From Alentia gelatinosa (lineage: Eukaryota; Annelida; Polychaeta; Phyllodocida; Polynoidae), in contig OX465580.1 of the NCBI GenBank assembly GCA_950022655.1, positions 45,506,028-45,570,027 on the forward strand: 64,000 nucleotides of DNA. Direction: 5' to 3'. Position numbers and translations under genes: made by a program. Shown in pieces: positions 2,110 through 63,840 of this stretch. Positions within the stretch are counted from its first letter, which is position 1. Each line of letters starts with the position of its first letter. The notes below the pieces were generated by a model, which made no database searches, was not told the origin of the DNA, and saw only the letters and a program-made list of their open reading frames with translations.

Positions 2110-2128
2110 TACCCTAGATGAAACATGG

Positions 2129-10332: not shown

Positions 10333-10374
10333 CTGGGCGTGTAGAAGCGGGTCTGTACCTGTAATCAGGTGAAA

Positions 10375-10610
10375 TCACTTAACATGGCGATCAGGGGGGG
10401 GGGGGCGGTCGACGCGGAGAGTGGGTAAAACGTCTCGCGGCGCCGGGCCCTCGGCCAGGACCTCCTCGGAGTCCAGTAAAGCCGCAAGCAACCACAACTT
10501 GTGGGCGCAAGCGCCCACAAAAACATCCTTGATCCTGTGAGGGGAAATAACTGCCCGAGCTCCCGGGCTGTTGGTGGTTATAAGTATAACCGAGCGCTTC
10601 ACCGAGCGTG
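10375..10610 (-). pseudogene. RNase H C-terminal part of DIRS element, shifted frame
   Basis: This frame contains ITTNSPGARAVIS followed by KDVFVGACAHKLWLLAALLD, which resembles the end of the RNase H domain of DIRS-type elements (a TDN..A..VI..G...D..VN block, then LW.LAA). The main RT frame above it becomes glycine/proline-rich nonsense at this point. I infer a frameshift near 10600 that separates RNase H from RT. Confidence 0.6.
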
Positions 10611-11233
10611 GCCGCTATGATAATAGCTAGGGTGCCCGTGCGCAGACTGGAAGGCGCCACGTTGACCTCTAGGTCAGACCAAGACCACGTGACTGCCTTG
10701 GCGACGACTCGTGCGTGGGCGGAATCCTTTGCTACAAGTAGCGTCATGAAAACGTGCGCTTGCGGCCGCTGAATCAGATAATTGCCATTGGCCCGCTCTG
10801 CGTAGTGGGTTAACCAGTTGACATCTCCCATCAGGGCGGGGCTTATTTGTATGACGTCACAGAAACGAGCTGCCCGTAAAGCTGCGAAGATGCGTGTTGT
10901 AAAGCGCCTCGCGTGCCTAACGCAGGCGGCGATATGTACAACCCGTCCCGCTAACGACTGGAGCATGCGGAGAGTAGCATGAGTCTTGTCCCGCCAAGCG
11001 CGGCAGATCTCAATTACCTCGTGTAATTTTTCCGGGGGAATTGAGACGATCATGGCGACCGAACCCACGTGGAAGCCTAGCCACGTGAGACTTGTCGTAG
11101 GCGGGGAACACTTTTCACGAGCGAGTTGGAGGCCCAAGTCGCGAGCCAAGGCCAGAAAGGTCGCGTAGGCCCAGTCGGCCTTTTCTTTATTAGGCTCCAC
11201 CCCGGCGTAGTCGTCTAGGTAGGCCAAGGCCAT
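10611..11233 (-). pseudogene. DIRS-type RT, catalytic C-terminal part
   Basis: Begins at the catalytic box LAYLDDYAG (YLDD) and continues with LTWLGFHVG and the RT connection region into early RNase H. An in-frame TGA between 11246 and 11233 separates it from the N-terminal RT block; both lie in the same frame. The stop could have arisen by C-to-T change at a CpG in an arginine codon, but that is inference. Confidence 0.85.
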
Positions 11234-11245
11234 GATGTCTTGGCC

Positions 11246-12085
11246 TCATAGGATGTATATGACTGCGTTGGCCACGCGTTGACACACCACAGAAGAAGTT
11301 CTGCAGTCAAAGGCTGGGCAAAGGTCGATGTAAAAATTATCGCCCACCTTGAAACACATGAGGGAGGTATCGGCGGGATCGAGCCTTAGCTGGCGATAGG
11401 CTCGGCTCAGATCCGCGGCCCAGAGCCACGCCCCCTTTCCTATGATTTCGATATGATTCAGCAGGTCCCGGATGCTGGGGAGGGTGTATTTTGCAGAACC
11501 GCCGAGATACATCCCTTCCGCAATCCCGTCGTTGACGGAGTGTCCCGGGGGAAAAGAGAGGTCGATTATCACCCGTCTATCGCTGGAGTTCTTCTTTTCT
11601 CTCGTCATAAGAGGGGAAACTTGGGTGTGGTCCCCGAAGGGAGGGTCTGACAAAGGCCCCAGAATCGCTGCGTGTGATAATTCCGTGTCTGTGAAAACGT
11701 CGAGGGCGTCTTTGAAAGCGCGGGCGCTGTGGTGGTTGGTGTAGGTGGGCAGAGGCCAGTTGTCGGCGTCGTAGCTAACTGGCCACCCGTACCTGAGAAA
11801 AGTGCAGACTTCGTAGTCGTGATAACCTTGGAGACGTTTTTCCCACTCTCGAACGTTTAACGCGGAAACAACATCACACTTAGCACCACAAAAATTATAT
11901 GTCCCCTCCTCCACAATGCGTGAGTAGAGGTGGGCAAAAACCGGGAATTTAACCTGGCATTCAAAAGAGGGGGGGGGCCTCCCAACCGGCGACTCCGACG
12001 TTGGTTGGACCCGCTTAGGGCGATACACGTGACCAATAATCGGGTTGTCCGTCCCGTGGTCACTCAGACAGTGTGTATCGCCCCC
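11246..12085 (-). pseudogene. DIRS-type RT, N-terminal part
   Basis: Contains RRVIIDLSFPPGHSVNDGI and then LWAADLSRAYRQLRLDP, the first RT motifs of DIRS and Ngaro elements, with the first catalytic aspartate in AADLSRAY. The frame ends at a TGA, after which the YLDD part follows in phase. The frame is open upstream to about 12120 and overlaps the end of gag in another phase, so translation may need a frameshift or internal start; the listed boundary is approximate. Confidence 0.85.
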
Positions 12086-12098
12086 CTCAGGGTGGTAC

Positions 12099-13241
12099 TC
12101 AGGCTGAGTTGAAGGGGGTTGCGGCAGACCCTCGGCCTGCCACAGGCCTAAAGGGCGTGGCTTTGGCAGGTGTAGGCTGAGCTGTGGTGGATTGGTGCTT
12201 AATGCGACACTCCTGGAGCACGTGGGGATGGTGAAGTCCTAGAATGGAGTGGCAATATTCGCAAATATGGCTGACAAGCCCCCCATCAGCATTGGTATGG
12301 GGGGGTCTCAAAGTGCACCCCTTAGCCGAGTTATAATCCGCGCAAGGGGGGTTGGTGAGGACTTGCTTCGATTTCTGACGTTTGGTGGACTCAACATCCT
12401 GCTTTTGTAGACGGGAATTCTCAGACTGCGATATAGCGGTCCTGAGGTGCTGTATTTGGTTATCGCTGGCCCAGCCGTTAGGGAAACGTCCTTCTTGTAT
12501 CCTCGCAAACGTCTCCTCACTCCAGCGCCTCACTGAGGATAAATCGTAGTCGAGGGAATCTTCGACTACCTCACGGAGATGCTGAAGTAGATGCGGCTTA
12601 ATGGCCGTATCTGTGTCGGTGTCGTCTATCATCCGCAGTATCCCCCAAACATATTCCTGGATGTTCAGAGATCCCAAAGACGTTTTTACCTTCTTTAAAC
12701 CTTTGAATACGTACTGAAACGGCTGATAGCGCTTACCGCTAATAGGACGCAAAACGTGGCTGGGGTGTTGGAGAATGCGTTGGATCTCGTCATTGAGGGT
12801 TGTGTCCAGGTAACGCGGGGTTGCAGCACTCTTAGTCTCCCAGGCACTCGGCTGCCGCACGAGGTATGACGTCACGAAGTCCTGTTGAGTTCCCGCGCTT
12901 AGTGGGACCTGGATCTGGGTCCCGGGAACGGCGCCATTTTGAAAACTTTGAGCTGTAACTGTCTTCTGTATGGGAATCGTTTCACTTACTGTGTTTCCCT
13001 GTGGCAGTTGCGCTTGTGCGTTGATGGTAATGTGCTCCTGCACTTGGGGGGTCTCGGAAACGTTTTTGGCGGCTTTTGCACTCTGGGTATTAATGAAACC
13101 CATGATGGCGTTTTTCATTTCTTCGACTTGTCCTTGTAACGCGTCGATTCTTTTATCGGCTTTAGTCTGCCTCGTAGTTGTAGGAACCGCGCTTTTCTGG
13201 ACTCTCGTTTTTCCCGCAGTCGCTGGCTTCTTCGGCGGCAT
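12099..13241 (-). CDS. Gag-like protein of DIRS-type element
   Basis: A 380-residue frame, first gene of the element. The N-terminus is lysine/threonine-rich, followed by a short coiled-coil-like stretch (about residues 28-50), a glutamine-rich spacer and a folded middle region. Near the C-terminus, a cysteine/histidine cluster (C..YN..KGC, then HICEYCHSILGLHHPH and C) fits a nucleic-acid-binding zinc finger seen in gag proteins of this order. The end overlaps the RT frame. No break is seen. Starts at ATG 13241 after a roughly 380-bp leader. Confidence 0.8.
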   Translation of the reverse strand: MPPKKPATAGKTRVQKSAVPTTTRQTKADKRIDALQGQVEEMKNAIMGFINTQSAKAAKNVSETPQVQEHITINAQAQLPQGNTVSETIPIQKTVTAQSFQNGAVPGTQIQVPLSAGTQQDFVTSYLVRQPSAWETKSAATPRYLDTTLNDEIQRILQHPSHVLRPISGKRYQPFQYVFKGLKKVKTSLGSLNIQEYVWGILRMIDDTDTDTAIKPHLLQHLREVVEDSLDYDLSSVRRWSEETFARIQEGRFPNGWASDNQIQHLRTAISQSENSRLQKQDVESTKRQKSKQVLTNPPCADYNSAKGCTLRPPHTNADGGLVSHICEYCHSILGLHHPHVLQECRIKHQSTTAQPTPAKATPFRPVAGRGSAATPFNSA

Positions 13242-13620
13242 GGTTGATGCGTTTTCCTGACAGATCTAAAGTGTAATTCCACCGTGAAACCCCGGAGCAA
13301 AATTTAAACGTCTTCTTGAGATAAAGTTCGAAGTGAAGACTGGAGGTCACGTGACCGAGCGTGGTCTTATAAACGTCCGATAGGGTGCGCCTGAGTCTAT
13401 GAAAGCGCCATCTGTATTCATTACTGTTCACAAGTTCGCTCTAATTACGTGATTCTTCATTGGTACTTCCATATTAGTTAATGTATCGTTTGGCAATATA
13501 TTGACTATAGTATCAAATATGTTTCACAAGGCTAGCACGTGTCTGTCCTTAATGTTTGAAAAAACATTCAGCTTTAAATGATATCATTATTGCATATTTC
13601 GATATTGTGTAGGCGCGGCG
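13242..13620 (-). promoter_or_regulatory. Leader of the DIRS-type element
   Basis: Sequence upstream of gag, more GC-rich near the gene and AT-rich beyond 13440. It probably contains the 5' terminal repeat and promoter, inferred only from position. No TATA box or matching repeat at the other end was confirmed. Confidence 0.35.
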
Positions 13621-34863: not shown

Positions 34864-35520
34864 TCATAGCGTAAAATCTTTGCAGTCGGATGGGTTTCCG
34901 AGCCTCAGATGTCTGACAGCGTGTTGGTTCGGCGTCATTTCGACGAGAAAAATTTTTTGACGTGGCATTTGGGTGTTGTTATCCGTATTTGCTATCCATT
35001 GTATTGAGCCCCCTTGGTGCTTGGCACCCGAGACGGTGAATCTAATGTATTCAATTTTGTCTCGTAGGCGGCTCGCGTTTTTGCTTTGTGGATGTTGATA
35101 TATGTAGTCTACTACATATATTTGTACATTCTCCACTCCTTTATGCTCATGCATGTTGAAGTGTTTTGGGACATTGCTGATCCCGCTCTTTTTCTTGATA
35201 CTTCTCAGGTGTTCAGAGAGTCTCTCTTTAAGCTTCCGCTTCGTTTGGCCCACATATTGTATGCCACAACGTTTGCATTCAATGCAATAGATGATGTTGG
35301 AACTATTGCACGAGACATTGCTTTTGCAATGGTGTTTGGTGCCTTTTGATTTCGAGTGGATGGTTTTTGATTTTCGTATCATGGGGCAGTATTTGCAGTC
35401 CTTTTTGATGCATTTGTTGTCCCATTTCTCCTTAGGATCGTTTGCCTCTCCTGGGTGGAACACTGTCCTAGCCTTTACTAGGTGGTCCCGTAGGTTTTTG
35501 GGGCGTTTGTAGCCCCTCAC
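34864..35520 (-). pseudogene. GIY-YIG endonuclease domain of Penelope-like element
   Basis: This domain is thought to nick DNA for element insertion. The frame shows cysteine motifs KDCKYCPM and CKSNVSC, then NIIYCIECKRCGIQYVGQT and LKERLSEH (about residues 75-105), the GIY-YIG core as found with its cysteine cluster in Penelope-like elements. The last 27 codons lie inside the 84-bp inverted repeat. It follows the RT frame after breaks between 35880 and 35520. Confidence 0.88.
34869..34952. repeat. 84-bp inverted repeat, 3' arm of Penelope-like element
   Basis: Reverse complement of 39262-39345 with one mismatch. It covers the stop codon and last 27 codons of the endonuclease ORF. Confidence 0.92.
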
Positions 35521-35879
35521 TAGTTTCGAATGGTAGATGTTTTTGGTGGTACTCGATTTACCTAGGATCTCCCAGTTTTTGTTTACCAGGTCCGGTAGGG
35601 TTTTGTGTCCCTGTCAGAATGTGCTGATGAGAAAAACTTTCTCGTCAGTATCCTTTTTCTTGGTACTTTTTTGCAGGGCTTTTGCTCTGTCTACTTTGTC
35701 TACCCTTTCTTTGCATTTTTTCAGCAGATGTGGCGGGTATCCTCTTTCTATGAAATCTCGCGCCTTTGTCTTTGGGTGGGCTTCATAGTCATTGTTTTTT
35801 GAGCAGATACGTTTTACTCTCAGTAATTGAGAGTATGGTATACTGTTCTTTTGTGATGCCGGATGGGCCGAATCGTACT
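35521..35879 (-). pseudogene. Linker between RT and GIY-YIG, frame-broken
   Basis: Minus-strand translation in more than one frame gives NSIPYSQLLRVKRICS and then ARDFIERGYPPHLLKKC, the conserved RT-to-endonuclease linker of Penelope-like elements. A stop and frame changes interrupt it. Confidence 0.7.
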
Positions 35880-36677
35880 TTAAGTACGTGTTTTCATCGG
35901 TGGGTTTGCAATATAGGTCAGTGTATAGACGTTTGAGTCTACTTTGACCGTCGTGTCCAGGAAATGTACCTCACTTTCAGAGGTCTCTTTCGTGAACTTT
36001 ATACTGCGGTGAGCATTATTCAGATGCTGGACCCATTTATCCAGTTCTGATTTTCCATGATTCCAGATGAAGAATATATCATCGATATATCTCCACCAGA
36101 CCTTCGGTTTCAATGGGTGACCGTCTAGGAGTTTCTCTTCTAGACTCTCCATGAATAGGTTCGCGTACGAGGGGGCTAGCCTAGTCCCCATCGCGGTCCC
36201 ACTCACTTGGATATAGTTGGTCCCATTGAACTGAATGTTGTTGTTTTCTAACACAAGTCTTAGTAGCTCTATGATACTTTCTGTGTCAGGTTTCTCTTTG
36301 GCTAGGCGTTTGGATGTGAGTTTCTTTCTGACTGTTTCTATCCCCTCGCTGTTGGGGATATTGGTGTATAGGGCACCTACGTCGAGTGTGCCTAATATAT
36401 CACCTTTCTCTACTTGACCCACCTCCTGGATTTTTTCTAGAAAATGGTTTGTGTCCTTAATGTAGGACGGGATACGTGGAACTTCCGGTTTCAGAAAAAA
36501 GTCTACAAATTTGGAGATTTTTTCTGTTGCACATCCGTTGGCCGATACTACCGGCCTGCCGGGTGGCGGTAGCTTCCCCTTGTGTATCTTCGGTAGAAAA
36601 TACACCTGAGGTGCTCTGGCTTCTTTAGTTGTTAGGGCTTCCCCCATTTTGGGGGTCAACTCTTTGTCCTCTATCAT
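35880..36677 (-). pseudogene. Penelope-like reverse transcriptase core
   Basis: RT motifs in order: YFLPKIHKGKLPPPGRPVVS (residues 26-45), LDVGALYTNIPN (98-109, first catalytic aspartate), GTAMGTRLAPSYANLFM (150-166) and WWRYIDDIFFIW (YIDD at 187-190). Catalytic residues are intact. The frame is separated from the upstream N-terminal part by a one-base loss in an A run near 36680, and from the linker by another break. Confidence 0.92.
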
Positions 36678-36682
36678 CTGGT

Positions 36683-37534
36683 TTATTTTGTGGCTATTTT
36701 ATTGTTTAGGAAGCTGGTTGGATCTTTGCCTAACTTGTGATACACGTTGGTATCATTGAGTTGACGGTGTGCTTCCTTGACATAGTCTAGGGTGTTCATG
36801 CCTACAGTGGCACCCCCTTTGTCTGCCGGTTTGATGACAATGTTTTTATCCTTAGATAAAGATTTGAGAGAGTATCGTTCTGCCTTTGTGATGTTTTGTT
36901 TCACCTTGATTTTATGGGCATTGGCATTGGTAAGGCTTATTTCATTTACTGCTATGAACCCTTCAAGATTTGAGGACCCTTGTGGGGCAGAGAAGCTAGT
37001 GGTTTCTTTAAGTTCCTTAATGAGGCTTTTGTTATCAAAAGGATATGAACTTACGGAAGCAGGTATGTCGGTCCTTATTTGTCCGTCCACGTTCTGTTGG
37101 ATGATCTCGTCTCCGGTTTGGGCGACGGGTTTCTGCACTGTCGGTGGTTTTTTCTGAAAGAATTGCTTAAGTCTAAGGTTCCTATGGAACCTATCTAAGT
37201 CCATTTTCATTTCACCTTCTTCAACATTCAGGGTTGTCGGGCAGAAGTTAAGACCTTTGTCTAGTAGAGAAAGTTCAGAATCGGTTAGTTCTTTATCTGA
37301 TAGATTTACTACAGTGCCCATTTTGCAATATTTTATGGGGGTTGACCCCTTGATTTGGTCTACGAGATGTAGGTTACTATTATCTGAGTCAGTTTTCTGT
37401 TTCGAAACTTCACATGCAAAAGAGGAACAAACAAACGAACACTGTTCAACACGTTTAATACTCACTGGTTGTACTACACATGGGGTCGTTACAGTGTTGT
37501 CTGACGTGCACTCAGCACTGTCTTCGGTGGTCAT
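36683..37534 (-). pseudogene. N-terminal part of Penelope-like main ORF
   Basis: Contains the family-typical VNLSDKELTDSELSLLDKGL and CPTT block (about residues 75-95) and later NIVIKPADKGGATVGMN, which precedes the RT core. It runs into the RT at 36677 after a frameshift. ORF1 ends 78 bp upstream. Confidence 0.85.
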
Positions 37535-37611
37535 GGATACGTTACTGTCTATAGTTTGGTAGACTGTGACGCTGCTGGCTTGTTTTGGCCTCGCTTCGCT
37601 CCACGATTCCC

Positions 37612-39222
37612 TCAGCCCCCACGGCCGCGGCCTCTGTTCTTGTTCTGCGGAGCAGGGGATTTCGGAAAATCCGGCTGTTTCTTAGCACCATCGTGGGATG
37701 TGCTAGGAGTCGCTCCTTTCGGGTCCATGATGGTCCCTGCCTTGGGAGCCCGAGTCGCTCGCTTCTGGAGTCGGTCCTCCAGAATCGTCACTTCTTTGAG
37801 GTAATCCCTCTTGGCAGTGAGTTCCGCGTGTGTCTTGACTTGAGCGAGAGTGTTGTCGACTTCAACCTCTTCCATTTTCGAGTCGAGCATGGTACTACGC
37901 ATTATCCTCATCGATTGCTCTCGGATTTGTAGCTCCACTTCCTCCCTGGCTTTCAGGGACTCTGCCACCATCTTGGTGATTCGCATGGCTGAAGCTCGGC
38001 GTTCTTCGTAGATCTTGGTACGGGTATCAGTGTCCAAGTATCCGGGCAGCGGGGCAAGCCCCACCGTCCATGGCTCTACGTGGTCTAGGCGATGTGCTTC
38101 GAAGAAGAATGCCGCCCTGGCTTCGCTTTTCATTTGTTTGCCCGCGGCGTCCCTTAGTTCTCGCCACGTGCGATGCAGAGAGCTGGGCAACATGTCGTCA
38201 ATGATCTGAAAAGATGAAGACCCTGTATTAATCGTGTGTTTATTACAAGTCTTGCGGCTCACAGAATCGTGTTTAGGTGTGTCATCATGTTCATCAGTTG
38301 CTCTTTCTTTAACTAGGTTAATGGCCTGATGATTTGTCATGTTGACATTTGGTCCTAAATCATTGACATTGTTATTAGTCCTGCCTAGTTCAGCAGGGTC
38401 TATGGAGATCTCAGAGTCACTATTGTCTACCAGAATTTGTAGTGTATTTAGATTCTCTAAGTCCTGATCAATTAGAGTGGTGTCACTCTCACTTCTCAAT
38501 GACACGGTTTTATTTGAAAAACCACACGTATTGGCTGTGTCTGTGGGTATGGAGACCGTCGAGTGTCTTCCCTGAACGGTGGCGCAACAGCTGTCTGCTC
38601 CGGCGTGTTCGGTATGTGAAGTCAGGCGAAAGCCTGCTGTCACAACATCTCCGACATAGCCGTCACTAGACGCCGCTGACACTCCGTCCGGGTTGATACT
38701 GCCGGTCGGCCGTGTACCCGAGCACACGCCAGCGGTTTTTCCGCACCGGGTCCGTGTCGGCGTGTCACCGCGAGTCTGTACGCGGTGTTTATTCGACAAG
38801 TCCGGCACCAAAAGGTTTCCCGACTTGTTGAAATAGTCTGTAATTCTACCTCTTTTGAGGTCTAACACAGGCTTGTCATTTGAATTCTTTTTCAAACGAA
38901 TAGAAGGTCTGACAGCTTTGACAGTCTTTCTGTTGGAGACAGCTACAGGTACATTGTTATGTTTACAAGTGCTGGCTTGAGAGTTTTGACAGTTTAAACT
39001 AGCTTCTGGGGAAACACACATAGTATTCCTATCAGTACAAGTATAAACATAGTCATTGCAACTTGGTGTACTCACTTCGTCTCCGGTGGATGTCTTGGGG
39101 GCTTGTTCCGGCACTTTTTCGATTTGAAAAACGGTGTAGGATTTAGCTCCCTCGACTCCGGTCGACGGGTCGTCGCCCACACGGCGACGTTTCAGTGTCG
39201 GTACACCTTGCTGCATGTTCAT
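37612..39222 (-). CDS. ORF1 protein of Penelope-like element, function unknown
   Basis: An intact 536-residue frame upstream of the RT ORF. The N-terminus has a basic cluster (KRRR, residues 11-14). At residues 125-131 it reads GRITDYF, similar to a PCNA-interacting (PIP-like) motif but lacking the leading glutamine. The middle is low-complexity and polar. From about residue 340 a more ordered part starts (IDDMLPSSLHRTWRELRDAA), followed by a long charged helix likely to form a coiled coil (about 405-490) and a basic GRGRGG tail that could bind RNA. I do not recognise a named domain. Its intact state contrasts with the broken RT ORF. Confidence 0.75.
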   Translation of the reverse strand: MNMQQGVPTLKRRRVGDDPSTGVEGAKSYTVFQIEKVPEQAPKTSTGDEVSTPSCNDYVYTCTDRNTMCVSPEASLNCQNSQASTCKHNNVPVAVSNRKTVKAVRPSIRLKKNSNDKPVLDLKRGRITDYFNKSGNLLVPDLSNKHRVQTRGDTPTRTRCGKTAGVCSGTRPTGSINPDGVSAASSDGYVGDVVTAGFRLTSHTEHAGADSCCATVQGRHSTVSIPTDTANTCGFSNKTVSLRSESDTTLIDQDLENLNTLQILVDNSDSEISIDPAELGRTNNNVNDLGPNVNMTNHQAINLVKERATDEHDDTPKHDSVSRKTCNKHTINTGSSSFQIIDDMLPSSLHRTWRELRDAAGKQMKSEARAAFFFEAHRLDHVEPWTVGLAPLPGYLDTDTRTKIYEERRASAMRITKMVAESLKAREEVELQIREQSMRIMRSTMLDSKMEEVEVDNTLAQVKTHAELTAKRDYLKEVTILEDRLQKRATRAPKAGTIMDPKGATPSTSHDGAKKQPDFPKSPAPQNKNRGRGRGG

Positions 39223-39261
39223 GGTATGAGCGGTATGCGAATTCCCGAATGAACGGAAAAC

Positions 39262-39345
39262 TTTTTCTCGTCGAAATGACGCCGAACCAACACGCTGTCA
39301 GACATCTGAGGCTCGGAAACCCATCCGACGGCAAAGATTTTACGC
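39262..39345. repeat. 84-bp inverted repeat, 5' arm of Penelope-like element
   Basis: Exact outer end of the element, inverted copy of 34869-34952. It lies just upstream of ORF1, so it may include promoter sequence. Confidence 0.92.
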
Positions 39346-50802: not shown

Positions 50803-52018
50803 CTATTCTTCTGTGGCACTGTCAGAAATTTCGAAATTTGATTTTGTGTGATAAATCCGAAAACAATGTGGAAGACAGAGGTGAGTACCACAGGTTTTAC
50901 AACCGTAGCGAGTTTGCTTCCTAGGTCCAAATCCGTTCTTGTTACGATAATAGCAAACCCGGCAAAAACTTTTACGCTCTAAATCGTCAGGAAAACATCT
51001 ACTCGTTAATCGATTTGCAGAATCCGAAAGGGGTCTAGCGACTTCCTCGTTAGTTGCAGTCATAATCTGCTGGACCAGACAGAGAGAGAAGTCGACTAAA
51101 CTGATTTTCTTGTCCGAAAGTGAGTTGTACATTATCTGGGAGTTCAATTTCATGATCTCCATCACGAAAAAGAAGAATTTCTTGGTCCATTTCCTGCTTT
51201 TCCTACCAAAAGAATAATACGAAGCCATTTGATCAGCTAAGTCGACCCCGCCCATGTACTGACTGTAAGATTTGATTGTGTCTGGACAAGGGATTTCTTT
51301 CTTAGCGAATTTGCCGTCAGTACCCCGTAGTGTTCGAATACAAGTGGACATCGTGGAGCCGTGAATGGTGGACAGAATGCGAATTATCTTACGATCTAAC
51401 CAACAGGTCAATAGCAAACACCCAGCCTTAGCGAAAATCGAGTCGCCCCGCTGTGTCAACTCGGGATGTTTCCTCGCCATGTAGGACTTAGGCACCTCCG
51501 TGCGATTCATTCGGAGAGTACCACAAGTGTAGGTTTGAAGTGAGTGGAGCCGTTCGAGAACCTGTACACCAGTGTAGAAATTATCGAAGAAAACATGGTA
51601 GCCTTTGTTTAATAGTTTAGCACCCCGTAACAGCCTCATAATTATATTTTCTGTCGAGTTACTTCCCTTACGGTCGTCACGGCCAAAGAAAGGAATCACC
51701 TGAAGCACAAAGCCCGTACACGACTCCGCCAGCACCCAGCACTTGAGACCCCATTTACAAGGCTTGTTAGGCATGTACTGACGATGTCGTGTACGCCCTT
51801 TGTGCTTCACGATTGTTTCGTCAATCGCAACCTCACGACGGGGGACATAAACAGAGTTACAAACAGAATTGAAATGCTGAAATAAAAAGTCAGTCATCGT
51901 GTGTGGAGATCTGGGGCGGGAAGTCGATGGACCGGATGTTGTCGCGGGACCGGATGCGGCGCTCTGAGGACCAGCGTCTGCTCCAGTCGTAACGTCAGGG
52001 TTTGAGAAATGCAGGAAT
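50803..52018 (-). CDS. piggyBac transposase, exon 2
   Basis: This exon carries the catalytic core. In the spliced 588-residue protein, the three aspartates lie in VAIDETIVKHKGR (about D250), VFFDNFYTG (about D329) and MGGVDLADQM (about D443), the DDD set of piggyBac enzymes that excise and insert at TTAA. The C-terminus has a cysteine-rich domain (CRVCYYRNKNGF, then CKTCGTHLCLPHC), as in this family. The first 40 codons, after the splice, begin FLHFSNPD, completing a RF.SIL.FLHF motif. No stop or frameshift is seen. Joined to exon 1 across 52019-52240. Confidence 0.93.
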
Positions 52019-52240
52019 CTTTAAAATACAAGGGGAAGAATGGTCTAAGACTCTAGGAATACATAATACATGTATATTCTGAACTAATGTGAGGAAGACA
52101 GGGCTATATTTGCGATATAAATATATGAAAATCGATTCGCCGCTACAGTATCTGGAAATCGTTTCACTGCGCTTGCGCAGCTCTGAGTCTGGGCTGAAAT
52201 ATAAACAATGATACTGTCAACATTAGCGAATTAAACTTAC
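52019..52240 (-). other. Intron of piggyBac transposase
   Basis: On the minus strand the donor is CTACA|GTAAGT and the acceptor TTGTATTTTAAAG|ATTCC, 222 bp apart. Splicing keeps the frame and joins the two halves of a conserved motif; without it exon 1 ends at a stop. Prediction from sequence only. Confidence 0.85.
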
Positions 52241-53868: not shown

Positions 53869-53872
53869 TTAA
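53869..53872. repeat. TTAA target duplication, right side of piggyBac
   Basis: Partner of 44466-44469. It also supplies the stop codon of gypsy pol. Confidence 0.85.
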
Positions 53873-55046
53873 GAAGCTCGTGACAATGCATCAGCACAGA
53901 CATTGTCTACACCTCGTACATGAAAAATCTCAAGATTGAATTCTTGCAACAACAAACTCCAGTTTAGCAATCGCCTGTTTTTGTTTTTCATCTTCTGCAA
54001 GAATGTCAGGGGGTTGTGATCTGTATACACAAGTACTGGATCTAGAGGGGATGACACATAAACACTGAAGCGTTGTAAGGCCAACACTAATGCCAAAGTT
54101 TCTTTTTCAACTGTTGAATAGTTCTTTTGGTGACAACTGAACTTCTTTGAAAAGTAGCATACAGGGTGCTGAACACAATTGTCATCATTCTGCAGTAACA
54201 CTGCACCTACCCCATGGTCACTTGCATCAACCATCAGAACAAACTTCTTGCCAAAGTTTGGAGCCATCAGAACAGGTCCAGAACACAAAATATATTTTAC
54301 TTTCTCAAAAGCATCATCACAATCTTTGGGCCATATGAAGTCTTTCTTTTTCTTCAACAGGTTTGTAAGTGGAGCAGTGATGTCAGCAAAATTCTTACAG
54401 AACTTCCTGTAATATCCAGCCATGCCAAGAAACCTCATTAAACTTCTCTTGTTTGCTGGAACTGGATATTCAACAATACTCTTGATTTTGGCTTTGACTG
54501 GTGCAACCTGACCTAGACCAACAACATGTCCAAGATAAATCACCTTTGCCTGTCCAAACTCACTTTTTGTCAGGTTTACATTTAGGTTTGCTTCTTTGAG
54601 CCTTTCTAACACAGATTGCAGCCTGCACAAATGCTCTTCCCAGGTGTCACTGTAAACCACAATATCATCAACATACACTTCCACACCTGGCAGACCTTTC
54701 AAACACTGGTTCATCATTCTTTGAAAAGTGGCTGGAGCATTCTTCATACCAAATGGCATCACCTTGTATTGATACAAACCATCAGGAGTAACAAAAGCAG
54801 ACACTCGCTTTGCTCTATCACTCAAAGGAACAGCCCAGTAACCTTTGAGTAAGTCACACTTGGTGATATACTTGGCTTTGCCAATTTTGTCTATGCAGTC
54901 ATCTATTCTTGGAATAGGATATGAGTCTGTCTTGCTGAGATTATTTACTTTGCGAAAATCAGTGCAAAATCTAACAGAACCATCTGGCTTGGGTACAAGT
55001 ATACAAGGAGATGACCAGTCACTGTTACTTGGCTCAATGACGTTAT
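53869..55046 (-). pseudogene. Gypsy RT (second half) and RNase H
   Basis: Continues RT after the LINE insertion: VIEPSNSDWSSPCILVPKP, VMPFGMKNAPATFQ and VEVYVDDIVVYSD (YVDD box), then RNase H with FVLMVDASDHGVGAVL and YTDHNPLTFL, ending in VDNVCADALSRAS and a stop. The stop codon TAA lies within the TTAA used by piggyBac. The frame is open from the LINE junction. As integrase is upstream, RNase H is the last domain of pol, as in Gmr1-like elements. Confidence 0.93.
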
Positions 55047-55434
55047 TCTTTTTTTAAATTTTTTTTTTTAAATTTTTTATTTCTCGCATTCAAAATGTAC
55101 ATTTTGTTCTTCCAAGCGGGAAATTTGTAAGGACAACAGTGTCAACGCAACAAGAACACCTTATATACAGATTGATGACAGATATAAGATGTTTTCTGGA
55201 AAAATAAATCACATCAATTATGAATTTGAAATGCTGTAATGAATCCGATCGGTAATAAATAAGTATCTCTTGACCGAAGTCGCTTCTTTTTAGTGGATCA
55301 TTTTTCTTATATCTTAGTAACATGGCATTATACAGGTGATGTATCACTACAGTTCATCGGTTTACCACTGATCTAAATCTGTACCAGTAGTATGGGCAGT
55401 AAGATGGTTTCGGTGTCTGTCGTAATAAACCCAT

Positions 55435-56865
55435 CTACAGCACTCTTTCTTGTTTAAGCTTGTCTAGTACTTCCTTCTTGAATAGTGATTTGGACATTGT
55501 GCGCTGAACAGCGACCGGTAGTTGGTTCCAGAGCTGAATCCCTTTGTAGTACGCGGATCGTCTGTACTTCTCCTTCTTGGGGAACGGCAAATATAGATTG
55601 TCTTTGTCTGTTGTTCTTGTTATTCTCACTCTGCCAGGTCGTTTGTTATCGAGTAGTAATGCATCTATGTTCTTTAAACTTTTAACAATACCCATTAACA
55701 GTGTCGTTCGTCGTACATCGGGATGGACTACATCGCATTTATGAAACAAGGTCTCATTACTTATCGGTATACCATCTCTATACGCGTCCTTACCTATTGT
55801 GGTCCTTAAGACCCTACAGATTATTACATTTAGTTTGTCACGAGTTTTCTTAGGGGCGCCATCAAGGAGGAAGGAACAGTGGTCAGTTACAGGTAATAGA
55901 CAGGATTTGTTTATTTGAATTGCAGTATTAAGATTTATAAAATTCCGAATTTTCCAAAAAATCGCCCATTTATCGCATAGCGCGTTTCCCAATTTATTCC
56001 CATGTTTTTCGAATGTTAAGTCACTGTCAATAATAGCTCCTAAGTAGTTCATTTCGTTAGCAGTCTCTATCTCTTGACCATGCAGGTAAATTTTGCTCCT
56101 ATTTTCAGCCATGATCTTTCTTTTGTTTCCGTGATAAACTATTCTAGTTTTTTTGACATTGATGGTTAGCCTATTAGATGTGTACCAGTTTTCTAAGTTA
56201 ATACAGACATTATGTGTTTTTGCTTCAGTTTCCTTGATGGACCGGCCACTTGTTATCACCACGAGATCATCCGCATACAGTAAAAGTTTACTATCCTTCA
56301 CCGCCTCTGGCAGATCATTTATGTACACAAGGAATAACAAAGGGCCCAGTATGGAACCCTGTGGAACCCCGTACATTACTCTCTGCTTGTTAGAATCTTT
56401 GTCCCCATAGTTTGTGTAACAATACCTCCCCTCTAGATATGACTTCATCCAGGTGATCAGGCACGTGCCTATACCAGCTTCTGCTAATTTAAAAAGTAAG
56501 ATGGAATGGTCGACGCAGTCAAAGGCCTTTTTGATATCTATATAAAGGGCTGTAGCTATTTTATTGTTATTAATGATGTCTAAGATAAGCTCTGTGAGTT
56601 TTAAGACTGCGCCACCAGTACTTCTAAGTTTACGAAACCCAAACTGGTTTTTGTTGAAAAAACTTTTATCTTCTAGAAATTGATACAACCGTGTGTGTAC
56701 CACGCTCTCCAGCAACTTGCCGGGTACGGGTAGCACACACAGGGGCCTCCAATTTCCCACATCCCTAAGAGAACCCTTTTTTGGTAGCGGTGAAATATGC
56801 CCTAACTTCCAAGAGCTGGGAAAAAGACCAGTTTCAATAGATCGGCGCAGTAATGAGACAAACAA
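55435..56865 (-). pseudogene. LINE C reverse transcriptase half of ORF2
   Basis: RT motifs are intact: WRPLCVLPVPGKLLE, YIDIKKAFDCVDH (residues 108-120), YGVPQGSILGPLLFL (165-179) and the catalytic LLYADDLVV (YADD 197-200). The C-terminal part has a cysteine/histidine-containing region and the tail motif SAYYKGIQLWNQLP. The frame connects to the endonuclease-linker frame near 56865 after a frameshift; the ATG given is internal. Confidence 0.93.
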
Positions 56866-58195
56866 GTCTGAGCAAGATGTTAGTATTTTTTTTCAAAAAT
56901 TCGCAATTAATACCTGTTATTCCTAAGGATTTTTCTATGTCAATCAATTTAATTAGTTTCTCTACCTCCTCTTTTGTTATGTCATTCCCATTAATTTCAA
57001 ACCCATTCCCATTTTGCCTCTGGATATAATTCAGCATATTAGCATTCCCTAGATCTTTGTTTAGGTTAGCCCCTATTTCGCAAAAAAACTTATTGATATA
57101 GTTAGCACATTCCGAGATGGGGATCACTTCTCCATTTTGGTTTTCGAAACATTTATTATCATCTTTGCCTTCTTTAGGGTTCATAAAGCTATTTATTGTC
57201 TTCCAATACTTTTTGGGATCGTGCCTAAATTTAATCAGATTACGTTCGATAAAAGATTTACGTGCATCGCGTAGCTTTATCTTGATTCTATTGCGCAAAC
57301 TTTTTATTACCTCCAAAATTTCGACTCCCGCCTCATTTGGTCTAATGAATTTTTTCCGTTTAATGAACTTTTGACATAACCTTCTATTTTTATCTATGTC
57401 ATTCTTTATATCATCTGTTATCCAGGGGGTTAGTTCATACCTGGAACTAAAACTCTTAAATGGAGCTTTCATATCCAGATATTCCACCATATGGCGGTGC
57501 CATCCATTCCAAATTTCATCTGTACTAAACTTATTTGGGTTAATCACTTGCGTTTCGGATCTTAATAATGTTGTCATATCTGTTACCTTAACCTTGGAAT
57601 AATTTCTTGCTAGCCTTGCGACTTTGGGATGGACTTCTCGTGCTTTCTTCTTTTCGGCAAAAACTATTAAGTGGTCGCTCTGAAATATGTCTAAAGTACC
57701 TGATTGTCTTAGGAATTTTGTATTTGTGAAAATCTCGTCTATACTGCTGCTGTTCCCTATGTTTGGTCTAGTAATAGTGTTTATTATTCTCTTCATATTA
57801 AAATTTCTTATTGTGTTCATAAGTATTTTATTTCTAGGGTCCCTCCTGTTTCTCCCGTCTAAGTTGATATTGCCCATGATCCAAATTTCACTGTCCTTTA
57901 CTATATTATCTGAACATATTTGGTCTATGTATTCTAGCATAGCATCAATGTTGTAACCTGGTGTTCTGTAGATGTTTATTATTGTCATTATACGGTGTTG
58001 TGGTTTTCTGATCTTTAAAGCAATGGTTTCCAATTTTTCAGTTATGAACGTAAATTCTGACAGAAGTTCGGTAAATGGCGACCACCTTTGGTTAACGTAT
58101 ACCCCCACCCCCCTCCTTTTCCCAGTGCCCGATCATTTCTAAAAAAAGTTAACTCAAGTTGGACATTTTCGTGTATGGATCCGTCTGTGTCAGTT
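56834..58195 (-). pseudogene. LINE C endonuclease and linker part of ORF2
   Basis: Endonuclease motifs include WIMGNINLD (where GD.N is usual, so the catalytic aspartate appears replaced by asparagine), IDEIFTN and QSDHLIVF. The frame from 58108 upstream is shifted at a G run, where the other phase gives LTFFRNDRALGKGGG. The expected first 35-40 residues with the asparagine and glutamate motifs are not seen between the end of ORF1 (58200) and this point, so the endonuclease start is deleted or badly decayed. The linker ends with KSLGITGINCEFL before RT. Confidence 0.85.
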
Positions 58196-58199
58196 ATGT

Positions 58200-60034
58200 T
58201 CAACGATCTCGGAATTCCATGAGTATGTGCCCGAGTGTGTTCCAGCCCGTATACTCACCGGTTTCATATAGGTGGCTTTGCCTAGTGGCCCCGCCTCCCC
58301 AGAATTGCGATTCTGTTGACTCCACTAGACTTGCGCCCTTTGTTTTCTTTAGTATCTCGTGTAGCCAAGGGTTCTGAGTGAATTTCTCGGCTATGAGGCC
58401 TTTCATTACCTCCACTCTGCCACCTGCCATTCATCTTTTTTGGGTTGCTCCTGTCCGAAGTCACCCATTTTCTTTATGTCGTATATGTTCATTTTCAGTC
58501 TGAGAACTGAATCCGCCGTTTCTGTCTTGCCATGGTACAAGCACTTTTCGTATACGTAGGCCTTTTCGACCGACTTGAAGTTTATTTCTTGGCCATTAAT
58601 GACCTTAACCAATTTAGACCCGTGCAAATTTGATAGGGGGCATTGTTTGCCATTGAACAGTATGCCTGATCTCATTAGTTTCGCACCCATCGGTACTATT
58701 GGGTTGTTTTCGTTGTTTTTTCCTAGATCGGTGTGGGCTTTTAAGTGGTCATTATTAGCTATGTTTTGAAGTCTCTCTTCAATGGTTGTTTGTGCTTGTT
58801 TTACCCTGTTTACTTGTTCATCAGCGTTATTAGCCGTTGCAGTGTCTTTATCTGCTAGGGGGATTTCTATTGCTTTCAGTTGTGCTACGAGGGTGGGTAG
58901 AGTAGCAATACTACTCTCAGTTGGGATTGGTGGGCGCGCGACTTTAGCACCTATTGACCCCGCATCTTCAAGACTGTAGAATGTCCCGTCTACCACTGCA
59001 CCTTCACTAGTGATGTGTGCGCGTTGACCCTGTTGTTTCGTTGTTCTAACCGCCACTCGGAGCTTGTACCGGGCTTCCCGGTTCTCCTTCGACTCACACC
59101 TTTCTATCCATACACCCCTAGCTCGGTCGATGCCTTTCAATAGTGTCTTGTTGTTTATCACATGTTCGACTAGGGGGGTATCACTCAGCCTGATCATAAT
59201 TGGCCTTTGTCTATTTCGTTCTGACGACGTCTGTTTCCCCACTCTCTGTGCATCTACTTTGTTTCCTGGAATTAACCTGATATTGATATCCTCACAAATC
59301 TGTGTGAATATCAGCGCTAGGTTTTCCATCGGATGTTCCTCTATCCCCACAATAAAAATCTTGTAGTTGTTTTCATCAAAGTGTCTCTTAGGGGTACTTC
59401 GAAGTTTCTGTGCGTATGTAATGTTGTCAGCGGGCGTGTTTATCACACCTTGTTTTTTCATGTTTTCTTGTTCTGTTTCGAGGGCACTCACTCTTTCTTT
59501 CAAAGTCGTTATTTCTTTATTTTGAACTTCTATTCTAGCATTTGTTTCAAGTTGAATGTCATCTATTCTGCCATGCAGTTCTTTCATGTTTTTTGATATG
59601 GTGTTTGTCACGTTTTGTTCGAGAGAATCAAAATCTTTTTTCTTAAGTGACGTGTCATTATTATGTCTAATTTCAAGCATAATGTCATTTAGTGTAGGTT
59701 CGTGTTGTTGGTGTTGTGCTCAATGTTGATCGTCTTGATCATGTTGTGTGGAGTCAGTTATTACCATGATACTTTCGTCACCATGTGTACTACTCAGGAA
59801 GTCGCTAGGTAATGGAACCTTTTTTGGGTTAGAATGTCTACTGTTCGGGCTGACAATTTCACTTGAGGGAGAAAGCAATCTCTTGCTACTTACTTGATCG
59901 TCTTGTTCCCCATTATCCCTCACTTTTCCATTCTTATTCGGTGTATCATCGAGCTGTGCACGGGTTAGCGCTGGGAAATCCACATGGTTGGTGCACTGCA
60001 CAAACCCTGCCGTGGCGGTGCCCGGAGCCGCCAT
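58200..60034 (-). pseudogene. LINE C ORF1 protein with C-terminal NADAR (YbiA-like) domain
   Basis: About 610 codons. I chose the ATG at 60034 (AACATGGCGG context). An in-frame TGA at 59720 interrupts it. Next come a coiled coil (ending near KERVSALETEQENM), an RRM-like region (NYKIFIVGIEEHPMENL through GVWIERCE) and a polar linker. The NADAR-like domain follows: GILFNGKQCPLSNLHG, NFKSVEKAYVYEK, a frame break near 58430, then VMKGLIAEKFTQNPWL, ESQFWGGGA and GWNTLGHILMEFR. These match the family's LSN, E..Y...K, KF.QN, WG.G and G.N.LG..LM..R positions. Known NADAR proteins act on ADP-ribose adducts or riboflavin intermediates; the role here is unknown. Confidence 0.87.
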
Positions 60035-60265
60035 GTTGCTTCCCGTACCGTGTAGTGCTAGTAGCGTTTCCCTCTCGGTGTAAATCACAGATATTTCGTT
60101 GGAGAGCCGTACCTCAAGTTCCTCCTTTCGTAAGATTAGTCTCCACCCTTATTTGAGTCTCTGGGCCGAAATCGAAACTTGAGTGATGATGATAATCCCG
60201 GTTTAACCCATAAGTCTGCGGAGCGTACACACACACGTCTACATGCTACGGTGCAAACATAGCAC
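60035..60265 (-). promoter_or_regulatory. LINE C leader
   Basis: Non-coding leader, which should contain the internal promoter. A run of ACACAC occurs near 60227-60235. Its 5' junction with gypsy RT lies at about 60262-60268. Confidence 0.45.
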
Positions 60266-60927
60266 ATGTAAGATACCTCTTTGCTCATTTTCTCAGCCTT
60301 GTGTGGGCTAACTCTGTAAGGATGTTGTTTGATAGGGAGAGCTTCTCCCACATCTACGTCTTGGATGGCAATATCAGTTTGACTAGGAACATCAGGAAAG
60401 ACTTCCTTATACTCTCTGAGCAATATGCTCAATTCCTCTTTCTGTACTGGAGGCAGGTGCCCTAACTTGGCATCTAGATTTGCAAGAACATTTGAGTTGT
60501 TCAGTTTTACACTGTAGTCTATAGGTACAAAATCAGTTGTTTCTTCCTCATCACTCAGTGCATTCATGCACCCAGCTGTCTTGACACTGTTGGAACTTTC
60601 TCTGTTATAGTAAGGCTTCAACATGTTGATATGACACAACTGAGTAGATCGTCTTCGGTCAGGAGTTTTGACAACATAGTTCACCTCACCAATTCTTTTG
60701 ACTACTTCATAAGGACCATGGTAACGAGCCTTGAGTGTATGCCCAGTAATAGGTAGTAACACCAGCACCTTGTCTCCCACAGAGAATATATGCTCTTGGG
60801 ATTTCAAGTCAAACTGGTCTTTCATCTTTCTTTGAGCTTCTTTCAGATTCTCACGTGCTAGCTCACAAACACGAACTAGCCTAGTTCTAACTTTGGAAAC
60901 ATAATCCAAGACATTGTTGTTTTCCTA
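60266..60927 (-). pseudogene. Gypsy integrase C-terminus fused to start of RT
   Basis: One open frame begins with an integrase C-terminal region (KDQFDLKSQEHIFSVGDKVL, YHGPYEVVKRIGEVNYVVKT, LCHINMLKPYY) and runs directly into the RT N-terminus (LLREYKEVFPDVPSQTDIAI, then PIKQHPYRVSPHKAEKMSKEV). This physically links integrase to the following RT and proves the domain order. The frame ends in LINE C leader codons after YM. It is separated from 60949 by a frameshift. Confidence 0.92.
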
Positions 60928-63141
60928 ACCAGTGTTCCTTCAATACCTTCAATGGACCTCGCACTGTATGACCAAAAACCAGCTCAAAAGGACTGAATCC
61001 CAATGATTCTTGAACAGACTCTCGAGCACAAACAACAACATACCAATACCTTCATCCCAATCTTTCTCATTCTCAAAGCAGTAAGTTCGCATCATGTTCT
61101 TCAGAGTGCAGTGGAATCTTTCCAATGCACCTTGAGACTCTGGGTGGTAAGCACTGGACTTCACCTGCTTTATACCTAGTTCGTGAACTACTTGCTGGAA
61201 CAAGCCAGACATGAAGTTTGAGCCTTGATCAGACTGAATCTCTCGTGGAAGGCCAACCAATGAGAAGAAATTAATCAAAGCTTTGACCATCTTTGGGGCA
61301 GAGATATTTCTGAGTGGTATAGCCTCAGGAAATCTTGTAGAAGCACACACTATTGTGAGCAAGTACTGATTACTAGATCGAGTTTTGGGCAGAGGACCTA
61401 CACAGTCAATAATGACATGGCTGAATGCTTCTCCCACTGCGGGAATGGGCCGTAATGGAGCAACAGGGATCTTTTGATTAGGTTTCCCAACCAATTGACA
61501 TGTGTGACAGGTTCTACAAAATTGGGCAACATCTTGCCTCATCTTAGGCCAATAGAAGTGCCTCATGATCTTTTCGGATGTCTTGTTAACACCCAAATAA
61601 CCACCCATGGGTAGTTCATGTGCTACATTAAGAACCTCAGAGCGATAAGCCCTAGGAAGCACAATTTGATAAACAATAGACCAGTCCTCTGATGCTGGGA
61701 TATCTGGTGGTCTCCATTTTCTCATGAGAACACCATCTTTAAAGAAGTACCCTGTGGAGACTTTGTCAAGCTCTTCTTCTGAAAGTGCATGGCGGGTAAG
61801 CAATGAGATCTCAGGATCTTGCCTTTGTTCAGCAATCAACTTACTCCTGCCAAGAGGGACTTCATTACTCAAGTTAGTCTTGTCATCATTTTGACTTGAC
61901 CCTGGTTGAGAACCGACAAAAGAATGACCTTTAAGGTGTTCATCCTTTGAGTTGATAAATGTCAGAGACAAATCAATGATATCATCCTCAGTCTCAACAA
62001 CCACAGAATGCTTTTGGCTTAACTCTTTAGCCTGAGCCCTAGTCACAGCACAAGAGGGATAAACTTCACTTATCTCCTCATCAATGACATCATCTTCTGA
62101 TGACAAAGTGACTGGCTCAAGAACCATCTTTGGTTCTACAAAGACTTTTTCCCCTGCTAGATCATTTCCTAGCAACATTGATACACCGTCAACTGGCAGT
62201 TCAGATTTTACTGCAACTTCAACAGACCCTGATACCAAATCAGACTCTAGTCTGATTGTGTGAAGAGGTACACTCATGAAACCACACTCAACACCACGAA
62301 TAATGACATATACACCAGTGGCTGAACTTGAACTGAAAGGCAAAGCATTTTCTAAAATCATGGATTGAGATGCCCCAGTATCTCTCAAAATACGAATCGG
62401 GACAGAATCTGCAGTGTCACTACCTAGAGACACATTACCTTCAAGTATAAATGGTTTGTATTCTTCTCTGACATCAGTTACCTTATCTGTAACAAATGGC
62501 ACAATAACACACTCTGACTTTTTGGATGTTATGAATGCATTTGGCTTGGGCTCAGCTTTCTTCTTTTTCAGTGCCCAACACTCAGACATAATGTGACCCA
62601 GTTTGTGACAGTAATGACATTTTAGACCTGAACTCCTTCCTGAGTACTCACCTTTTGGCTTCACACTAGATTTCAGATCTTTGCTATCACCACCTTTTGC
62701 TCCAAGACTAGAATTGCTCCCTTGAGGTGCACTCTTCTTTTGTTTAACACTAGTCTTATGGGTTATGGCATAATCATCAGCAAGAGTGGACATTTCATGC
62801 AAGGACATTACTTTCTTTTCATCGAGATAAGTCTTGAGATCATTATATGTGCAGCGCTTAAATTCTTCAACAAGGCACAGTTGTCTGAGTTTATCAAAAC
62901 TATCCTCCACTTCCATAGATTTGCACCACCTGTCAAAGTACACTTCCTTTTCATGAGCAAACTCTACATAGGTTTGATTATCTTGCTTACAGTAACTCCT
63001 AAACTTCTGACGATATGCCTCTGGTACCAGTTCATAAGCCTTGAGAACAGCAGCTTTGACCTTTTCATAATCTAGACTGTCATTCAAAGACAGTGCCGAA
63101 TAAGCTTCCTGAGCTTTACCCCTCAAAACACTCTGTAACAT
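60928..63141 (-). pseudogene. Gypsy gag C-terminus, protease and integrase core
   Basis: Order along this 730-residue frame: capsid C-terminal region resembling a SCAN fold (about 38-120), zinc knuckle CHYCHKLGHIMSEC (175-188), protease active site LRDTGASQS (DTG 254-256), a spacer, the integrase zinc-binding H...H...C..C (to CRTCHTCQ, 549) and the DDE core with D579 (VIIDCVGP), D638 (SDQGSNF) and E674 (GALERFH), a DD35E spacing. All catalytic residues are present. Frameshifts at about 63130, 61040 and 60925 separate it from neighbours. Gag and pol appear to share one frame. Confidence 0.93.
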
Positions 63142-63799
63142 CTTTTGGCCATTTCATGCTTTGGGCAACCTTCTCAAAATGTTGAAAGTACTTGTCAACC
63201 TCATTTTCATTGAATGATGGCACTAGCCGTACATCTTTACTAACATCACAAATGTTCCGTTGGTTTGTCCTCTCAGAAGCAAGCTGTAGCTCCATTTCTT
63301 TAAGCCTAAGTTCTTTGTCAGCCTGAATCCGATCATGCTCTCTTTCCTTTTCAGCCTGAATCTGAGCAAGCTCTCTCTCTTTTTCAGCCTGGACTTGAGC
63401 AAGCTCTTTTTCAGCCTGAATCCGATCATGCTCTCTTTCCTTTTCAGCCTGAATCTGAGCAAGCTCTCTCTCTTTTTCAGCCTGGACTTGAGCAAGCTCT
63501 TTTTCTGCCTGAAGTCGAGCATGTTCTACTTCTAGTTGTTTGAGTTTTATCTCTCTCTCTAAAACCTCTTTACGACCTGCTTCTGAGGGACCACTAAAAT
63601 CTGATTCATGTAAAACATCTTCTGGTAATAACTCATCATCAACCAATATTTCAACAATAGCTTTTTTCAGTTCAGCTTTTCGGCTAGACCTTTTCACATC
63701 AAGTTCTAACTCCCTAGCAATTGCTAACAATTCATCCCTTCTTAACTGTTCTAATTCCTCCACAGAGGGTGACTGTAGAAAAGCTTGGTACTTAGACAT
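63116..63799 (-). pseudogene. Gypsy gag N-terminus
   Basis: Starts MSKYQAFLQSPSVEELEQL. The first 55 residues resemble a SAP-like helix pair (LRRDELLAIARELELDVK). A long charged coiled coil follows, built on a 31-residue repeat (QAEKELAQVQAEKERELAQI-type) present about two times, corresponding to a 93-bp DNA repeat (63321-63507). Then comes capsid start VRLVPSFNENEVDKYFQHFE. The frame is lost near 63130 and continues in the next phase. Confidence 0.9.
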
Positions 63800-63840
63800 T
63801 CTGATTTGTTGTACTTATCATCAAGAGAACAGTTTTTCAT

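Follow-up and report, generated by a model that had tools for sequence, protein, structure and literature searches.

Has a LINE retrotransposon made an ADP-ribose-processing domain a regular part of its own ORF1 protein, and what might such a domain do for it? Accessory domains of LINEs are few and poorly understood. The question arises from a 64,000-nucleotide stretch of the genome of the polynoid annelid Alentia gelatinosa (contig OX465580.1; hereafter the window). An earlier note on it, made from the letters alone, proposed that ORF1 of one LINE runs into a NADAR (YbiA-like) domain, captured perhaps to counter host ADP-ribosylation of nucleic acids or PARP-based defence, or to process the element's own RNA-protein particle. 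Outside DarT operons, the roles and targets of NADARs, those of animals included, are called unknown or unclear in published work (PMC11543638, PMC11125620).

A decayed LINE whose ORF1 ends in a NADAR domain

The element (LINE C, whose reverse transcriptase we take to be CR1/Jockey-like) occupies about positions 55048 to 60253 of the window on the minus strand, as delimited by the DNA match of a related copy, L050, and by inspection of the flanks. Its 5' limit lies near 60253, where the L050 match begins (78% identity over window 60253 to 58156), and its 3' tail is A-rich, near 55048 to 55090. Read by eye, the copy is inserted in a Gypsy-like LTR element (53869 to 63814) on the same strand, with Gypsy-like coding sequence (reverse transcriptase, integrase and gag-like frames) on both sides; no clear target-site duplication around the LINE was seen by eye. 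The window also holds a second LINE (LINE A, 709 to 3607) with endonuclease and reverse transcriptase frames related to L031 and L032, near which no ORF1, NADAR or esterase match was found at 1e-5. Three further stretches have, by eye, the look of a DIRS-like tyrosine recombinase element (9454 to 13265), a Penelope-like element with a GIY-YIG-like end (34864 to 39297) and a PiggyBac-like transposase (50803 to 52020).

ORF1 of LINE C is a broken frame of about 610 codons (58200 to 60034, minus strand), delimited by its reading frames and by tblastn with the L050 ORF1 (76% over 60133 to 58421 and 94% over 58418 to 58203). We read its start as a methionine near 60034; the L050 relative aligns from 60133. 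An in-frame stop (59720 to 59722) and one frame break near 58420 interrupt it, so that the minus-strand frame 58406 to 59719 is continued by the neighbouring frame 58430 to 58203. The extent of 58200 to 59680 given in the earlier note is therefore too short.

The motifs on which that note had built its case can all be read on the minus strand, where the ORF1 frame (58669 to 58410) has LFNGKQCPLSNLHG and SVEKAYVYEK and the next frame (58430 to 58203) has KFTQNP, FWGGGA and GWNTLGHILMEFR. Pfam NADAR (PF08719, curated cut-off 35.1 bits) matches the latter segment at 53.1 bits (E 5.6e-14, profile positions 89 to 161 of 163). By hmmscan the upstream ORF1 frame reaches 16.6 bits (E 0.0097), below the cut-off, over profile positions 9 to 86. 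Because the two halves of the profile are collinear and complementary, they represent a single NADAR domain (58203 to 58669) split by the frame break. The search that the earlier note had suggested thus yields a significant match in the C-terminal half, and we confirm that the window ORF1 ends in a NADAR domain.

Ahead of this domain lie a coiled coil (59459 to 59701), recognized from the sequence and by a Tnp_22_trimer match below cut-off (E 0.018), a putative L1-type RRM with a CTD (58973 to 59368) and a fast-evolving linker between CTD and NADAR (58670 to 58972), distinguished by its dN/dS between the window and L050. Pfam finds no RRM match in the window ORF1; the RRM and CTD were placed with a family profile built from eight ORF1s, a family-based result rather than one of the window row. 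The C-terminal part of this profile matches YbiA (2.4e-24) and the oomycete NADAR structure 8bau (1.1e-22), and its middle gives collinear, weak matches to the L1 ORF1p structures 2ldy (E 0.018) and 2w7a (E 0.12). The RRM-like part named in the earlier note gains support from this collinearity, at a strength short of proof. Domain predictions show ORF1 as a coiled coil, an RRM-like part with a CTD, a linker and a C-terminal YbiA-type NADAR. The predicted order coiled coil, RRM, CTD would be that of L1 ORF1p (type II), from which the window family differs by the additional C-terminal NADAR.

Both ORF2 domains of a LINE with an APE-type endonuclease and a reverse transcriptase were found by Pfam in the window element. 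The endonuclease remnant (56834 to 58132; PF14529, E 1.1e-6) has lost its N-terminal piece, and the reverse transcriptase (55438 to 56892; RVT_1, E 4.6e-37) stands in another frame. By tblastn the endonuclease aligns to L031, the ORF2 protein of a related element, only from residue 81 to 89 on, and the esterase-like ORF that relatives carry between ORF1 and ORF2 has no tblastn match in the window at 1e-5. Since the L050 match stops just behind ORF1 (58156) and the L031 match resumes some 80 residues into the protein (58146), we read the segment 58146 to 58156 as the junction of a deletion that took away the esterase-like ORF together with the beginning of the endonuclease. The window element is a decayed, dead copy.

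Whole LINE families share the ORF1-NADAR fusion

We searched the genome to which the window belongs (1.23 Gb, 101 contigs) for further copies. With PF08719 there were 3136 first-look candidates, and all 150 that were scored pass the Pfam cut-off. As read from the list, 146 of these 150 are free of stops inside the domain, and 92 belong to open frames that are 540 or more amino acids long. With the window ORF1 DNA as query (1501 bases), the genome gave 12 matches including the window itself, five of the others being near-full-length at 74 to 80% identity. These five (L050 to L054) all have an open ORF1 of 597 to 644 amino acids with an uninterrupted NADAR; the L051 frame opens behind the place of the L050 start codon. 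The intact copies that the earlier note had said to look for are therefore there. More distant open ORF1s also carry the domain, with Pfam E-values of 1.2e-31 (L029), 3.8e-33 (L003) and 2.9e-32 (L014), or 110 to 116 bits. In the PDB, the homologues of the L029 ORF1 include YbiA (2b3w, 2e-10) and an oomycete NADAR with bound ADP-ribose (8bau, 9.9e-7). Natural copies are open and in part near-identical (for example, L003, L004 and L005).

We also approached the question from the endonuclease. Among the 80 endonuclease matches compared (the first 80 of 150 listed), 54 had a NADAR or esterase match upstream and 26 had neither. Five of the 26 were inspected by eye: four have no recognizable ORF1, owing to 5' truncation, and in the remaining one an internal deletion has taken out the RRM, the NADAR and the first part of the esterase-like ORF. 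No otherwise complete copy without NADAR was found among these five. Copies lacking the domain had been named in the earlier note as a sign of chance insertion in a single copy; those that we examined are truncated or internally deleted. Our data support the view that in whole LINE families NADAR regularly belongs to ORF1.

The best NADAR match in the genome is a stand-alone frame of 242 amino acids (L001), which is probably a host gene. The 92 long frames also include one that is not a LINE ORF1 (L060:224-3346; G000:C5 near 15167223). This open frame of 1040 amino acids has an LRAT domain (1.2e-6), long degenerate repeats and a glycine-zipper-like stretch. It ends in a NADAR (3.9e-30) similar by eye to those of the LINEs and is possibly a host gene that acquired a LINE NADAR.

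Selection and catalytic residues

Pairwise Nei-Gojobori counts were used to estimate dN/dS. Between the window and L050, synonymous differences number 31 and non-synonymous ones 3 over the 71 codons of the C-terminal NADAR half (ratio 0.011), as against 0.061 for RRM-CTD, 0.089 for the coiled coil and 0.336 for the linker. The N-terminal half (83 codons; 41.5 synonymous, 14.5 non-synonymous) is saturated and yields no ratio, as do many comparisons between families. The same contrast between linker and NADAR appears in the pairs L009-L003 (1.18 and 0.032), L009-L004 (0.51 and 0.021) and L016-L006 (0.237 and 0.031). For NADAR alone, the median is 0.089 and the maximum 0.51 over the 20 of 406 pairs with dS between 0.1 and 2; the high values come from distant pairs near saturation and from L015-L026 (0.49 at dS 0.13). 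NADAR is constrained like the RRM part and far more than the linker of the same protein. Since relatives of the window copy have an intact domain under strong selection, NADAR seems to matter for the spread of these elements.

We aligned 29 LINE NADARs to 8bau, noting that these rows are not independent. The equivalents of E43, K50, W89 and W133 are present in all 29. The equivalent of E125 is glutamate in 28 (lysine in L015), and that of K75 is kept in 28, with one arginine. The window retains the E43, K50, W89 and W133 equivalents by reading (VEKAYVYEK, DEW, FWG) and has E at the E125 position (VESTES), which holds E in YbiA, D in the BC4488 type and H in the phage type, placing the window domain in the YbiA subfamily. 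At the D130 position, 24 rows have D and five have S, the latter being L050 to L054, the window's own subfamily; the window has S too. In the NADAR work consulted, loss of D130 has not been tied to loss of activity. Among the 29, the residues that bind the pyrophosphate and adenine in 8bau (R79 and Y84; PMC11543638) are not conserved; the D86 equivalent varies, and at the R93 position 23 rows have K, 3 have R and 3 have E. Residue conservation in this alignment indicates that LINE NADARs have retained the catalytic side, around the ribose, and have changed on the adenine side. Substrate recognition may differ, given the divergent R79 and Y84 positions and the serine at D130 in L050 to L054. 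LINE NADARs thus share the domain and the catalytic residues of the YbiA/DarG1 hydrolases (2b3w, 8bau; PMC11543638) and differ from them by fusion to a transposon ORF1 protein and by their adenine-side residues.

Two LINE groups and a separate esterase-like ORF

The ORF2 protein of the L029 element (L031; 980 amino acids, endonuclease and reverse transcriptase) fails to match L1 ORF2p when compared with the PDB set at E 0.001. In a reverse transcriptase tree of seven rows, the window groups with L031 at 100/100, the rest being weak. We therefore rejected a placement of the window element in the L1/Tx1 group. We presume the reverse transcriptases of the window and L031 to be CR1/Jockey-like from their motifs and the lack of an RNase H match, an assignment distinct from a clade test against named LINE reverse transcriptases. 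In contrast, the reverse transcriptase frame behind the L014 ORF1-NADAR (L035) matches L1 ORF2p at 9.8e-51 and is therefore assigned to the L1/Tx1 type; the ORF2 associated with L014 is in pieces. Tx1 belongs to the L1 reverse transcriptase group. Among the 40 Tx1-type endonuclease matches compared (of 150), 10 had a NADAR upstream on the same strand at 0.6 to 3.4 kb, within a non-random sample picked by eye, partly for an already seen neighbouring NADAR. By these assignments, NADAR-bearing ORF1s are present in two LINE groups, one CR1/Jockey-like and one L1/Tx1-like, which is new. Reticulate exchange of ORF1 types among LINEs has been described (PMC4120745), and such exchange could explain the presence of NADAR in both.

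Directly behind ORF1, L050 to L054 each have an SGNH-like ORF of 224 to 235 amino acids with the motifs GDSR, GIND and DGVHP. More generally, the motifs GDS, GIN and DG(I/V)HP were read by eye in these ORFs. Pfam Lipase_GDSL_2 matches that of L029 at E 4.2e-5 and that of L025 at 0.042, both under the curated cut-off; the SGNH-like ORFs of L003, L027 and L061 have no Pfam lipase match. As genome queries, the L029 esterase-like ORF gave 2386 candidates and the L029 NADAR 2921, with 150 scored in each case. Of the 150 esterase matches, 123 follow a NADAR match on their own strand at a distance of no more than 600 bp (median gap 41 bp), the partners being 123 of the 150 NADAR matches; 27 in each list have no partner. 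These lists hold the matches nearest L029 and say little about other families. Two of the partnerless NADAR matches, L007 and L061, were read individually. The order of NADAR and then esterase was also found in L003, L010, L013, L016, L022, L025 and L061.

Related copies therefore have the order ORF1, separate SGNH-esterase-like ORF, endonuclease-reverse transcriptase ORF2, and on these gene predictions the relatives of the NADAR LINE are three-ORF LINEs with a separate putative esterase, an architecture that is new. L061 is another three-ORF LINE: its ORF1 of 933 amino acids (L061:244-3045) combines NADAR with a very long N-terminal region, and it also has an SGNH-like ORF of its own (L061:3132-3830) and an endonuclease frame. 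L017 and L027 have a Tx1-kind ORF1-NADAR followed by an SGNH-like ORF (TDSRGR, GVNNLT, DGIHPG) that lacks a Pfam match and, in L027, differs from those of the others; in L014, the endonuclease follows directly behind ORF1. The L017/L027 arrangement suggests that a link between esterase and NADAR may not be confined to one LINE group.

Relatives elsewhere and published systems

In a NADAR tree of 36 rows, a branch supported at 35/73 sets the 14 LINE rows apart from the others, and the tree thus neither shows nor rejects a single capture of NADAR by LINEs. The stand-alone frame L001 falls in a six-row group (98/96) with stand-alone proteins and with P0025 and P0029, which are labelled TE-like. 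As a source of the LINE domain L001 is not favoured, since the LINE rows are not close to it.

Neither the window ORF1 frame nor the NADAR region of L029, used as queries, found a homologue at E 0.001. A profile built from 13 LINE NADARs picked up 65 proteins, of which 43 were inspected; most of these look stand-alone. By eye, P0001 (267 amino acids) and P0018 (178 amino acids), both from public contigs, have ORF1-CTD-like sequence ahead of NADAR, which suggests that the ORF1-NADAR fusion occurs in other species too. P0025 and P0029 have a short leader that by eye is maybe ORF1-CTD-like. In an AlphaFold model of P0001, the NADAR blocks have pLDDT 87 to 98, with one block at 58, and the part ahead 40 to 78. 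A scan of IMG/VR returned 11 pattern matches, with no relative among them.

LINE NADARs are not wholly new. A 2025 paper mentions in passing that several Pacific oyster Tx1 LINE ORF1s in Repbase have divergent matches, apparently to NADAR, and describes a NADAR at the N-terminus of Pol in Ectocarpus Gypsy elements (PMC12477816); among the literature matches listed, we found no other report of a LINE NADAR. The oyster elements share with ours a NADAR in ORF1, and with L014 a reverse transcriptase of the L1 group. The window family differs, as compared by description, in lying outside that group and in having relatives with a separate esterase-like ORF, and the account of the oyster domain, as consulted here, gives no selection or active-site data (PMC12477816). 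The Ectocarpus case is likewise a retroelement-borne NADAR, but in an LTR element, another protein and another position (PMC12477816). What is new here is the LINE group, the three-ORF architecture, and the evidence on selection and the active site. The interpretation in the earlier note is partly supported; it had missed the esterase-like ORF, the second LINE group and the oyster Tx1 paper.

An SGNH-type esterase upstream of endonuclease and reverse transcriptase is also known from ZfL2-1 and CR1 type IV ORF1p (PMC3905857, PMC4120745). There the esterase lies inside ORF1 (PMC3905857), whereas here an esterase-like ORF stands separately beside an RRM-like ORF1. Among the esterase ORF1ps of RepBase as surveyed in 2013, none had an RRM (PMC3905857).

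What the domain might do

ORF1p would coat the element's RNA and later its cDNA, and a NADAR tethered to it would hydrolyse N-glycosidic ADP-ribose from guanine in RNA, cDNA or target DNA. Guanine-specific ADP-ribosyltransferases of host or environmental origin would be the source of such adducts, which would stop translation, reverse transcription or integration. The observed fusion and its spread, the selection on the domain, its conserved catalytic residues and its partner of RNA-binding type point to this reading. That ORF1p-tethered NADAR strips guanine-linked ADP-ribose from the RNA or cDNA of the element is, in our judgement, a proposition as apt to prove right as wrong, for which we infer the enzymatic activity, the substrate and the benefit to retrotransposition. 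Published chemistry fits a counter to nucleic-acid ADP-ribosylation: NADARs free guanine in DNA of ADP-ribose (PMC11543638), and they are reported to be the one hydrolase family that does the same for guanosine in RNA (PMC11833690). Clams have a guanine-N2 DNA ADP-ribosylating activity, purified from one of them as CARP-1 (PMC11209040), so a guanine-ADP-ribose substrate can exist in invertebrates. A NADAR at the end of an RNA-binding LINE protein would be in a good position to take such adducts off the template. PARP-based defence, which the earlier note had also considered, appears a less likely target than base-linked ADP-ribose, because the NADARs assayed in PMC11833690 cleared guanosine-linked ADP-ribose in RNA and spared RNA phosphate ends.

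Other roles for the domain would explain part of the same evidence. The domain might strip ADP-ribose from proteins (ORF1p or host RNP) or degrade soluble ADP-ribose signals of host PARP-like immunity; a role of this kind has been proposed for NADARs of animal RNA viruses, in which NADAR and Macro domains are said to be largely mutually exclusive (PMC9503650), and the conserved catalytic residues would suit it equally. We consider it unlikely, given that tested NADARs act on guanine-linked ADP-ribose and neither on the thymine-linked form (PMC11543638) nor on RNA phosphate ends, and that fusion to a protein of RNA-binding type points to nucleic acid. The unconserved adenine-side contacts would fit a non-catalytic binding or packing module that aids RNP assembly, as would the mainly structural nature of ORF1 proteins. 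A pure scaffold has no need of a catalytic glutamate, yet the equivalents of E43, K50, W89, E125 and W133 stand in 28 to 29 of 29 rows next to a variable linker, and we rate a purely packing role as quite unlikely.

Clearance of another N-glycoside lesion, or a part in RNA-end repair or processing of a transposition intermediate, strikes us as improbable. NADAR enzymes do act on other N-glycosides, E. coli YbiA cleaving riboflavin intermediates (PMC11543638), and RNA processing has been suggested for the Ectocarpus Gypsy and oyster Tx1 NADARs (PMC12477816); Pfam found no partner RNA-repair domain in the ORFs scanned. Finally, the break inside the window's domain could be taken as the mark of a host NADAR gene inserted by chance beside one LINE copy. 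This reading is refuted and its probability negligible: copies elsewhere in the genome exclude a chance origin of the fusion, which is common to whole families, and the stand-alone L001 groups elsewhere.

If the guanine-clearing reading is extended, LINEs of at least two distant groups would carry an ORF1p guanine de-ADP-ribosylase that clears their RNA, cDNA or target site, as a counter-defence against CARP-1-like or pierisin-like enzymes of invertebrate hosts, in parallel to the bacterial DarT1-NADAR pairs, and with the separate esterase they would be three-ORF LINEs with two accessory enzymes. We offer this extension tentatively, as one that is rather doubtful as a whole. The open natural copies (L003, L004 and L005) make the question testable with natural proteins. 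A domain of this kind on an RNA-binding LINE protein, conserved and apparently catalytic in removing ADP-ribose, would suggest that animal retrotransposons face ADP-ribosylation of nucleic acids as a threat.
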